Assembly: GCA_009929095.1 (NCBI GenBank)
Contig: SABF01000017.1
Coordinates: forward strand, 1-14,258
Source: Erysipelotrichia bacterium
GTDB taxonomy: Bacteria; Bacillota_I; Bacilli_A; Erysipelotrichales; Erysipelotrichaceae
Length of the DNA: 14,258 nucleotides
Reading direction: 5' to 3'
Shown one piece after another: positions 1,436-10,420 of this stretch. A program made the translations under genes and the position numbers. Below the pieces are notes generated by a model that was not told where the DNA came from, ran no database searches, and saw nothing but the letters and a program-made list of their open reading frames with translations. The stretch's first letter is position 1. Every line of letters begins with the position of its first letter.

Positions 1436-2284
1436 ATGAGAATCAGTGAAGTGATAAAAAAACTGGAAGAGTGGCATCAGCCATTTGAAAGAGAACATAC
1501 CAGAGATGCTGTGAAATGCGGGGATCCGGATCAGGAGTGCACTGGAATAGCAGTGACATGCTATGGATCTGCTGAAGTGATTCAGAAAGCAGCAGAAAAG
1601 GGATGCAATCTACTGATCAGCCATGAAAGTATATTCTTCGGCGATGAGTTTGATGTGAATGGATTTATTGATAATGAAACATTGAAGAAAAAGCAGAAAC
1701 TGATCCGGAATACTGGAATGGTTGTATATCGTGACCATGATCATATGCATGGCATGGGCGGCGGTCCGCACCAGGAAACTCGTATTCGCAATGACTATAT
1801 TTTCTATGGCATTATGAAGGAACTTGGATGGGAAGAATTTGCGATGGGCGATAAGATGAAGCCGCTGCTGTACAAACTGCCTAAAACAACAGTCAGAGAA
1901 TTATCGAATTATCTGATTGAAAAACTGAACCTGAATGGCATCCGTATGATTGGCAGATGGGATGATGAAGTATCTACCGTCTATATTGTCGAACATTGCA
2001 TGGGCAGAGGAGATCAGGATAAGATCAACAAAGCCGTTCACGCTGACGTCATGATTCCGCTTGAAATATGCGACTGGACCTTATCGGCATATGTCAGAGA
2101 TGCTGTGACATTTCATGAGGCAAAAGCAATTCTTGAAATGGGACATTTTAACTTTGAAGAGCCGGGCATGAAATATATGACTGAATGGCTGCCGGAAGCA
2201 ATTGGCTCAGCCGATCTTCCGATTGTATTTATTCAGGCTGGCGATGCATTCCATTACATGAACAAAGAAATGGAAGAAAACTAA
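1436..2284 (+). CDS. NIF3-family (DUF34) dinuclear-metal protein
   Basis: A 282-residue protein of the NIF3/DUF34 family, whose members form ring-like oligomers binding two metal ions and whose physiological reaction is still uncertain. Metal-site landmarks are visible: the LLISHES segment with His63 (in place of the common HHP form), YRDHDHMHG with His101 and His103, and near the C-terminus GHFNFEEPG with His237 and a following Glu. Its length fits the short form without a large inserted domain. The ATG is preceded by GGAG 6 nt upstream. It is the last gene of the mannose-type PTS operon, so it may act on or sense a product of that pathway, but this is inference. Its TAA stop overlaps the stop codon of a regulator relic on the other strand. 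Confidence 0.85.
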   Translation: MRISEVIKKLEEWHQPFEREHTRDAVKCGDPDQECTGIAVTCYGSAEVIQKAAEKGCNLLISHESIFFGDEFDVNGFIDNETLKKKQKLIRNTGMVVYRDHDHMHGMGGGPHQETRIRNDYIFYGIMKELGWEEFAMGDKMKPLLYKLPKTTVRELSNYLIEKLNLNGIRMIGRWDDEVSTVYIVEHCMGRGDQDKINKAVHADVMIPLEICDWTLSAYVRDAVTFHEAKAILEMGHFNFEEPGMKYMTEWLPEAIGSADLPIVFIQAGDAFHYMNKEMEEN

Positions 2285-2357
2285 AGAATCTTCTTTACTA
2301 AACTTTGATACCCATCGTCCATTGCCTGATTCGACGGATCTTGCAGTGAACGTTTTT
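2281..2357 (-). pseudogene. Relic of the 3' end of a PRD-type regulator gene (direct-repeat copy 1)
   Basis: Read on the minus strand, the segment from 2332 to 2281 matches the last 52 bases of the regulator gene at 10342-12282 at 48 of 52 positions, including the TAG stop. It encodes NQAMDDGYQSLVKKIL-stop against NQAMDEGYQSLVKNIF-stop. Weaker similarity with small gaps continues to about 2357 (shared AAAAAA and GTTCACTGC blocks), but those gaps shift the reading frame, and no further gene body is present. The relic's stop codon (complement of 2281-2283) overlaps the NIF3 stop (2282-2284), as if a complete regulator gene once ran convergently into this operon. It is in the same orientation as the intact gene 8.06 kb away. 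The match is seen directly; the history is inferred. Confidence 0.8.
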
Positions 2358-2371
2358 TCTGTTACAGAAAT

Positions 2372-2400
2372 AGACAGCCGTATCTTGTATACGGCTGTCT
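2372..2400. terminator. Perfect 12-bp-stem hairpin between convergent genes, likely bidirectional terminator
   Basis: The arm AGACAGCCGTAT at 2372-2383 is the exact reverse complement of 2389-2400, with a 5-base loop (CTTGT). It lies 87 nt after the NIF3 stop on the plus strand and about 50 nt after the reductase stop on the minus strand, so it can end both transcripts. The trailing T-runs are poor on both sides (GAACTTAATC on plus, ATTTCTG on minus), so efficiency is uncertain. Confidence 0.65.
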
Positions 2401-2450
2401 GAACTTAATCTATATTTTCTGTGATTAGTGAGGAACTGAATCATTCAGAG

Positions 2451-8412: not shown

Positions 8413-8428
8413 CTGAAGGAGAAATAAT

Positions 8429-9841
8429 ATGAGTTCTTTGAAACAATCATTTCTTTGGGGAGGAGCTACCGCAGCCAATCAGTGTGAAGGTGCATACTGT
8501 GAAGATGGAAAAGGACTATCAAATGCTGACGTAGTTGTTGCTGGAAAAAGAGGAAAACCACGATTGAGAACGAATGGTGTGCTGGAAGGTTATAACTATC
8601 CTTCCCACACAGCAATTGACTTTTACCATCACTATAAAGATGATATCAGGCTGTTTTCAGAAATGGGGTTCAAATGCTATCGTATGTCCATTGCATGGTC
8701 TAGGATCTTTCCGAATGGTGATGATGAAAGACCAAATGAAAAAGGTTTGGAATTCTATGATCATGTATTTGATGAGTGCATTAAATACAATATTGAACCT
8801 GTTGTTACGATTTCGCATTATGAAATCCCATTTAACCTGGTTACTGAATACCGCTCATGGATAAATCGAAAGCTGATCGATTTCTATGTGAGATTCTGTG
8901 AAACTATTTTCAAACGATATAAAGACAAGGTAAAGTATTGGATGACGTTTAATGAAATTAACGTTAACATGCTGCATCCGGAGAATTCATTGGCTATCAC
9001 CGCCAATGACGGAGAAAATATCGAACAGCTGATCTATCAGTCGACGCATCATCAATTTGTGGCAAGTGCAGAAGCAGTTCAGCTTGGTCATAAAATTAAT
9101 AAAGATTTTAAAATTGGCATGATGATGCTGTATCCTACTTTTTATGCGGAAACGTGCAATCCTGAAGATCAGTTGATCACAATTCAGGAAAAGAACAAAC
9201 ACTTTGCTTTCAGTGATGTCATGGTACGAGGTAATTATTCATCCAATATGAAGAACTATCTGTCTTCCAAGCATGTTAAGATTCATATGGAAGATAAAGA
9301 TGAACAGATTCTGCGTGATGGGACAGTAGATTTCATTGGATTCAGCTACTACAACAGCAATGTTGGCACTTCAAGGAAAGATATTGAATTGATTGATGGA
9401 AACATGATTAATTCAGTGAAGAATCCCTATATTTTAGAAAGTGCCTGGGGCTGGTCTATTGATCCGACAGGTCTGCGAGTGGCGATGAATGAATTGTATG
9501 GCCGATATCAGATTCCTGTTTTCGTTGTGGAAAATGGATTGGGGTCTTATGACCATCTGACTGAGGATCTGACGGTAATTGATGATTATCGAATTGATTA
9601 TCTGCGCGAGCATATCCAGGCGATGAAGGATGCAATTCTGATTGATGGGGTTGACTGCATGGGATACACTGCGTGGGGATGCATTGATTTAATCAGTGTT
9701 GGAACTGGTGAAATGAGTAAGCGCTATGGATTTATCTATGTCGATAAAAATGATGATGGATCAGGTACTTTGAAAAGGTATAAGAAAAAGTCTTTTTACT
9801 GGTATCAGAATGTGATATCCAGCAATGGAGAGAAACTATGA
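8429..9841 (+). CDS. Glycoside hydrolase family 1, 6-phospho-beta-glucosidase
   Basis: A 470-residue cytoplasmic GH1 retaining hydrolase that should split the 6-phosphorylated glycoside delivered by the PTS. The N-terminal GH1 signature [15 protein letters not shown] is present. The acid/base is Glu176 in TFNEIN and the nucleophile is Glu368 in VVENG. The phosphate-binding trio typical of 6-phospho enzymes is visible as Ser423, Lys431 and Tyr433 in [14 protein letters not shown], which separates it from plain beta-glucosidases. Its length is normal. The ATG at 8429 has GAAGGAG about 8 nt upstream. It is separated from IIC by a stem-loop, and its last bases overlap the next gene by 4 nt (ATGA). 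Natural substrates could be cellobiose-6-P, aryl-beta-glucoside-6-P or related sugars. Confidence 0.95.
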
Positions 9842-10269
9842 TTTCAGAGAGAAAAGTCAACGTAATCATAAACGGAATTGTAAGTACATGCATGACCGTT
9901 ATGGCAACTCTGCTGGCTTATCGTGATGGTGCCAGATTTCTGTCATTCCAAACGGTGTTGTTCTGGATTCTTGGATATATTCTATCCGATTATTTCTATC
10001 ATAAGATTCCGGTGGAAAGTCTGAAAGATATCATGAGAAAATGTTTTCATATTACCAAAGATACGAATGAAGATTTATTCTTTTCTGATCTGCTTGTTAT
10101 ATTGATTCTAGTGTCGATTATTCTGTTTCTTCTGACGAGTATAACAAATATGGATCAAATAACAGCAGTGCTGATAATCTGGCTGAAGAAACTTCCGATT
10201 TTTATACTGTGCACATTCTTCAGTTCATCTATCGCTAAGCTGATCATTCGAAGGCTGAGTGTGAAATAA
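9838..10269 (+). CDS. Small four-helix membrane protein, unknown function
   Basis: A 143-residue protein I do not recognise. Hydrophobic segments at about 8-28, 37-55, 84-103 and 117-137 suggest four membrane helices in two pairs, split by a charged loop (residues 56-83, [19 protein letters not shown]). The first pair vaguely recalls DUF2798-like two-helix proteins, but the match is too weak to name. Its start overlaps the GH1 stop (ATGA), and GGAG lies just upstream within the GH1 3' end, so it is translationally coupled to the hydrolase and belongs to the operon. A transport, export or stress role tied to the sugar or its released aglycone is possible, but nothing in the sequence proves it. 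It is the last gene before the convergent regulator. Confidence 0.75.
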
Positions 10270-10341
10270 CATTGATCAGTTACTTGATAAAATGCCACGG
10301 GAAGCTGATTTGACCAAACACTGCCAGTTCAGTTTCTGCGG

Positions 10342-10420
10342 CTAAAAGATATTCTTTACTAAACTTTGATACCCCTCGTCCATTGCCTGATTCAATTGAT
10401 CAGATTGGCAGTGAACGAGT
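10342..10420 (-). repeat. Direct-repeat copy 2 (3' end of the intact regulator gene)
   Basis: The last 52 bases of the regulator gene (10342-10393) match 2281-2332 at 48 positions in the same orientation, with weaker gapped similarity to about 10420. The two copies start 8,061 bp apart and enclose the reductase, the intact PRD regulator and the whole lactose/cellobiose-type operon. Sequence just outside the stop codon (10270-10341) shows no similarity to that outside copy 1, so the repeat has a sharp edge at the gene's stop. Confidence 0.8.

Follow-up and report, generated by a model that had tools for sequence, protein, structure and literature searches.

The stretch analysed here, hereafter the window, is the whole of contig SABF01000017.1 (14,258 nt, forward strand) of Erysipelotrichia bacterium, assembly GCA_009929095.1, whose bin (2.14 Mb in 507 contigs) is 74.6% complete and in part masked. 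The middle of the window is occupied by a cassette of genes for the uptake and cleavage of plant-type sugars, centred on a Lac/Cel phosphotransferase system (PTS) and bracketed by two direct copies of the 3' end of a regulator gene, REG, and the present analysis concerns the origin of this arrangement. Relatives are referred to by genome (G) and locus (L) handles where they have to be told apart. From left to right, the following features were recognized:

31–390, plus strand: 3' part of a mannose-family PTS EIID gene that runs off the contig (NCBIfam EIID families, below cut-off as expected for a fragment).
412–936, plus strand: hyp174, a recurring partner in man operons (29–38% homologs directly after EIID in L093, L094, L193, L196 and L197).
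971–1396, plus strand: EIIA-man (PF03610, E 3.8e-22).
1436–2284, plus strand: NIF3/DUF34 family protein, last gene of the left flank (PF01784, E 1.1e-15).
2281–2358, minus strand: repeat copy 1, relic of the REG 3' end (alignment and frame analysis).
2372–2400, no strand assigned: 12-bp hairpin in the gap that separates the relic from the reductase gene, resembling a terminator when read on the minus strand.
2451–4427, minus strand: cassette, old yellow enzyme (OYE)-type flavoenzyme, 2,4-dienoyl-CoA reductase or BaiCD-like (PF00724 and PF07992).
4421–6325, minus strand: cassette, PRD/Mga-HTH/EIIA regulator (PF00874, PF00359, PF05043).
6452–6805, plus strand: cassette, Lac/Cel PTS IIA, LacIIA (PF02255).
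6762–7127, plus strand: cassette, Lac/Cel PTS IIB, LacIIB (PF02302).
7120–8379, plus strand: cassette, Lac/Cel PTS IIC, LacIIC (PF02378; TIGR00410 lacE above cut-off).
8429–9841, plus strand: cassette, GH1 6-phospho-beta-glucosidase (PF00232; NF007154 above cut-off; best PDB sequences 8ysv and 2xhy).
9838–10269, plus strand: right end of the cassette, open reading frame for a 143-aa membrane-type protein without a family.
10342–10425, minus strand: repeat copy 2, the intact 3' end of REG (alignment).
10342–12282, minus strand: REG, HTH_11/Mga-type regulator (PF08279, PF05043).
12382–13269, minus strand: right flank, ChbG/YdjC-type deacetylase (NF002559, 71.6 bits, cut-off 227).
13438–14258, plus strand: right flank, MATE transporter cut by the contig end (TIGR00797, 141.6 bits, cut-off 147.4).

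The two copies of the REG tail (2281–2340 and 10342–10401) are identical at 53 of 60 positions without gaps, and at 48 of 52 over 10342–10393 against 2281–2332, as the initial annotation had reported; with gaps, the similarity reaches 2358/10425. Aligned by Smith-Waterman, 2201–2450 and 10201–10520 reach a score of 100, against 33 for the best of 500 dinucleotide shuffles. In both copies the repeat is bounded on its left precisely by the REG stop codon, and on its right it fades through gaps about 80 bases in. No identical run exceeds 23 bp, and beyond 2358 no similarity to REG is left (235 of 300 shuffles score equally high). A check for further copies of the 52-bp segment, by DNA searches of the incomplete and partly masked bin, returned these two places only (E 3.6e-18 for the second). 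In copy 1 the relic TAG (CTA on the plus strand, 2281–2283) overlaps the TAA of NIF3 (2282–2284) within the motif CTAA, so that this earlier claim stands as well. The last 19 codons before this stop are in register, with 14 of the 19 residues as in REG; farther upstream, gaps shift the reading frame and a stop follows, and copy 1 is therefore a relic. The tails differ in six codons, in five of which the residue is altered.

Some smaller features lie at the repeats. A perfect 7-bp inverted repeat (TAAAGAA/TTCTTTA, 2282–2297) is found at the stop codon of copy 1, and the self-complementarity of copy 2 over 10342–10425 exceeds that of 500 of 500 shuffles. A plus-strand frame of 26 residues (10265–10345) has as its stop a TAA sharing bases with the REG stop codon, just as the TAA of NIF3 does with the relic stop at copy 1; this frame is possibly the relic of another convergent gene, although so short a frame can be due to chance. 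The terminator reading of the hairpin at 2372–2400 is weak, because the window contains seven terminator-like sites against 8.5 expected by chance.

The genes between the repeats are those listed by the initial annotation (a reductase, its PRD regulator, a complete Lac/Cel PTS, a GH1 enzyme and a membrane protein), and the set of a Lac/Cel PTS beta-glucoside operon is complete, with IIA, IIB, IIC, the PRD regulator and the GH1 6-phospho-beta-glucosidase. Like known operons of this type (TIGR00410), the cassette has a divergent PRD regulator and a GH1 6-phospho-beta-glucosidase, NF007154 and TIGR00410 both being above cut-off, but it differs from them in the OYE-type reductase and in the 143-aa protein, for which no match was found in Pfam, NCBIfam or PHROGs or, by tblastn, in the cassette loci of relatives. 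The reductase lies below the cut-offs of its two nearest NCBIfam models, BaiCD (391.5 bits, cut-off 825) and bilirubin reductase, and its nearest PDB sequences are 6qkg and 1ps9. Close LacIIC homologs (E<=1e-110) occur in six other genomes of 315, and at all six loci (L128–L133) a divergent PRD gene, IIA, IIB, IIC and an OYE-type reductase stand together. The OYE/BaiCD-like reductase is there at most 0.8 kb downstream of LacIIC (the contig of G293 ends within it), whereas in the window it follows the PRD gene. The GH1 gene accompanies two of the six (G215 and G278, 64–65%), with a 38% homolog in G280. Neither REG nor NIF3 was found at any of the six loci, in fetched stretches of 10.6–20 kb, and G213 and G215 own REG and Lac/Cel modules on separate contigs, with LacIIC far from the contig ends. 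Judged by these gene neighbourhoods, the cassette is a separate module.

The flanks, in turn, have companions of their own. REG is rare, with 11 proteins at E<=0.001, its own included, among 8000 candidates scored, and with matches at E<=1e-90 in 12 of the 315 order genomes, again including its own. One protein related to REG at 52% identity, P0002, is encoded on a contig of 203 kb. Within the genus, two of 70 genomes, one being that of the window, have it at E<=1e-40 (the other, in G030, is 38% identical), weaker regulators match it at E<=0.001 in 29 of 60 relatives, and a single-sequence search of genome contigs and viral contigs gave no confirmed match. Up to 20 kb were fetched around the best REG match in all 11 other genomes. 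Mannose-family PTS genes (EIIA, and in three genomes EIID too) and a MATE homolog (58–63%) lie near REG in the same seven of them (G151, G181, G213, G214, G216, G248 and G289). Lac/Cel cassette genes lie near REG in none of the 11 in these stretches, the weak PRD cross-match in G181 being to the REG gene itself; REG was thus not ancestrally beside the Lac/Cel operon, an arrangement that had been named beforehand as speaking against an insertion.

Similar associations appear around NIF3, for which all 10 other order genomes with a match at E<=1e-72 were inspected. A NIF3 relative at 73%, P0014, is also listed, on a contig of 25.8 kb. EIID, hyp174, EIIA, ChbG and NIF3 are found together, without the cassette, in G156, G267 and G268. 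The EIID fragment of the window matches the EIID of these three genomes, of G248 and of the Holdemania genomes G213 and G214 at 59–68%, and ChbG homologs (36–51%) occur in REG or mannose-family PTS neighbourhoods of G151, G156, G181, G267 and G268. In G248, NIF3, ChbG, EIIB, EIIC, EIID, EIIA and further genes run into a convergent REG with 29 bp between the stops, in G214 NIF3 directly precedes REG, and each Holdemania has a REG gene that converges with its man operon at a distance of about 440–470 bp. These gene orders support the view that EIID, hyp174, EIIA-man and NIF3 on one side, and REG, ChbG and MATE on the other, form one coherent neighbourhood interrupted by the cassette.

With moderate confidence, we favour an old insertion as the origin of the repeat-flanked cassette, which would be its worn scar rather than a working mobile element. 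A ready-made beta-glucoside module consisting of the PRD regulator, the Lac/Cel PTS, the 6-phospho-beta-glucosidase, the OYE-type reductase and the small membrane-type protein would have entered the conserved mannose-family PTS neighbourhood, the point of entry being the 3' end of REG, the regulator gene found there. A REG-tail sequence would most likely have come in with the module, and recombination within the tail would have left one tail on either side of the cassette; REG would then have retained the intact end (copy 2), and the copy on the NIF3 side would have decayed, with frameshifts and 12% mismatch. If the recombining REG tails had different neighbours downstream, a left repeat edge lying exactly at the gene end is what would result. 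A literature search on homology-facilitated illegitimate recombination in gene insertion by horizontal gene transfer found no paper. The direction of the event and its route are inferred, as is the static state of the locus today. RecA-type recombination needs an identical stretch longer than 23 bp. Excision by homologous recombination, which the initial annotation had considered, looks unlikely now, because the tails carry seven mismatches in 60 plus gaps and the longest identical run is 23 bp. If this reading holds, the locus is a readable footprint of a sugar-use module added at an existing PTS locus in a gut bacterium, with no mobility gene in sight.

Several observations weigh against an insertion of this kind. 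A donor carrying both the cassette and a REG tail was not seen, and the exact empty site, with NIF3 directly convergent with REG, was seen neither around REG (11 other genomes) nor around NIF3 (10 other genomes) in the stretches fetched, all of them from distant relatives; the best analogues are the man operon convergent with REG in G248, which is the nearest, and that of Holdemania. Mannose-family PTS genes were not seen near REG in four of the 11 genomes (G030, G136, G215 and G241, the last on an 8-kb contig), and the MATE homolog is likewise unseen there. A Lac/Cel IIC gene is present near NIF3 at three of nine weaker NIF3 loci (G033, G057 and G040; one of the nine is from the bin of the window itself) and at one of 10 closer ones (G289), and a GH1 gene stands beside a NIF3 homolog in G020, so the association of NIF3 with Lac/Cel genes could be older. 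Among 15 loci examined, two from Faecalibacillus (L099 and L100) have 23% REG-like regulators beside LacIIC (30%) and GH1 (47%) genes, these regulators matching the PRD protein of the window about as well as REG. The five residue-changing codons among the six that differ fit simple decay as well as they fit two diverged alleles. Finally, cassette and flanks are the same in composition (tetranucleotide correlation 0.948), and the notion of a compositionally foreign cassette was rejected.

A live rival, which we nevertheless consider rather unlikely, supposes an earlier duplication of REG, with one copy on each side of the cassette in direct orientation. All of the left copy would then have disappeared but for some 80 terminal bases at the NIF3 stop and overlapping it. 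Such a loss of a second REG would leave nearly the same footprint as an insertion. Two whole REG genes in direct orientation do bracket the mannose-family PTS operon in both Holdemania (L177 and L178; 54% and 57% identical within the genome), G248 has two REG-type genes on one contig, and a left repeat edge at the gene end is natural for a lost gene. The window resembles Holdemania in having direct-orientation copies of the REG family around a PTS operon, but the Holdemania copies are whole genes, 54–57% identical, and in the window one of the two copies is an 80-bp relic. The absence of REG similarity beyond 2358 speaks against such a loss, and tails that are 88% identical over 60 bases mean that the duplication would have to be much younger than that of Holdemania.

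Tail relics as a general trait of REG loci were also considered and rejected: the Holdemania tails find only the other whole REG gene, and at six other REG loci, with one REG tested per locus, no second tail scores clearly above 60 shuffles; an inverted one in G151 comes closest (1 of 60 shuffles as high). Elsewhere, the repeat DNA has matches of 22–29 bases (E 0.001–0.009) in four of the 69 other genus genomes searched and of 19–30 bases (E 1.5e-4 to 0.007) in 13 other genomes of the order, the scoring in the order being confined to the top two candidates of each genome. Loci could be checked for eight of these 17 places, and they encode no relative of any window gene (E<=0.01), for which reason the matches are judged to be due to chance.

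The comparison with attL/attR made by the initial annotation implies another route, in which a tyrosine recombinase would have inserted the cassette at an attB site in the REG 3' end and the integrase would later have been lost. Integrases are known to leave such a footprint, with direct repeats on both sides of an element inserted at the 3' end of a protein gene, and 14 of 68 thaumarchaeal integrated elements make use of such gene ends (PMC6563490). As in such islands, direct 3'-end repeats surround a gene block and the gene end is intact, and the 23-bp identical core and the 7-bp inverted repeat at the copy 1 stop codon would suit this route. The window differs from them in its metabolic content, in repeats that are 12% diverged with gaps, and in showing no mobility gene. 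No integrase or transposase was found among its 14 main genes (each by Pfam and/or NCBIfam, 10 proteins each, with PHROGs on 10 proteins), as had been claimed, the rest of the replicon lying off this contig; all genes that could be named are metabolic or regulatory. A scan of the window for tRNA and Rfam families gave zero matches. The segments 2341–2450 and 10262–10341 are no more alike than shuffled sequence, whether in inverted or in direct orientation (185 and 357 of 500 shuffles score as high), so that terminal repeats are missing. A foreign composition was likewise looked for and not found. Neither was a near match of 2281–10420 found in phages or plasmids, nor an exact match of the 23-mer core in viral contigs. 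Of the initial interpretation, the interruption of a coherent neighbourhood is supported; a recombinase-driven entry appears quite improbable.

It was also considered whether the window might be an artefact of assembly or binning, with unrelated pieces joined at a short repeat or a contig foreign to the bin. Of 20 contigs sampled from the bin 11 were readable, and the guanine-plus-cytosine (GC) content of the window (0.401) is lower than in every one of them (0.422–0.478), so that the entire contig may have been binned wrongly. The protein database assigns an identical NIF3 (P0012) to a 21,013-bp contig, but REG and the reductase to the contig of 14,258 bp. Against this, the repeat copies have distinct flanks with no identical run longer than 23 bp, cassette and flanks are alike in composition, and the tetranucleotide correlation of the window with the bin (0.899) is inside the range of the 11 contigs (0.856–0.978); an artefact is considered very unlikely.

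A broader idea, to which we give very little weight, is that REG genes serve as portable homology, PTS modules being swapped without an integrase by recombination between regulator copies. If true, the window would show REG tails around a Lac/Cel module and Holdemania whole REG genes around a mannose-family one.

As for function, the gene content suggests that the Lac/Cel PTS and the 6-phospho-beta-glucosidase would take up and cleave a beta-glucoside, that the reductase may reduce the released aglycone, and that REG most likely controls the mannose-family operon rather than the cassette. The recurring pairing of LacIIC with an OYE/BaiCD-like reductase suggests glycosides with a reducible aglycone as substrates, a testable guess. 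Literature searches combining BaiCD with phosphotransferase system, glucoside and aglycone found no paper, those combining old yellow enzyme with phosphotransferase system and 6-phospho-beta-glucosidase no on-topic paper, and those combining NIF3 with phosphotransferase system and gene neighborhood again no paper. In the genomes compared here, accessory genes for NIF3/DUF34 proteins turn up repeatedly in the vicinity of PTS genes of the mannose family and of the Lac/Cel type (L108, L109, L112, L113 and L193–L198).

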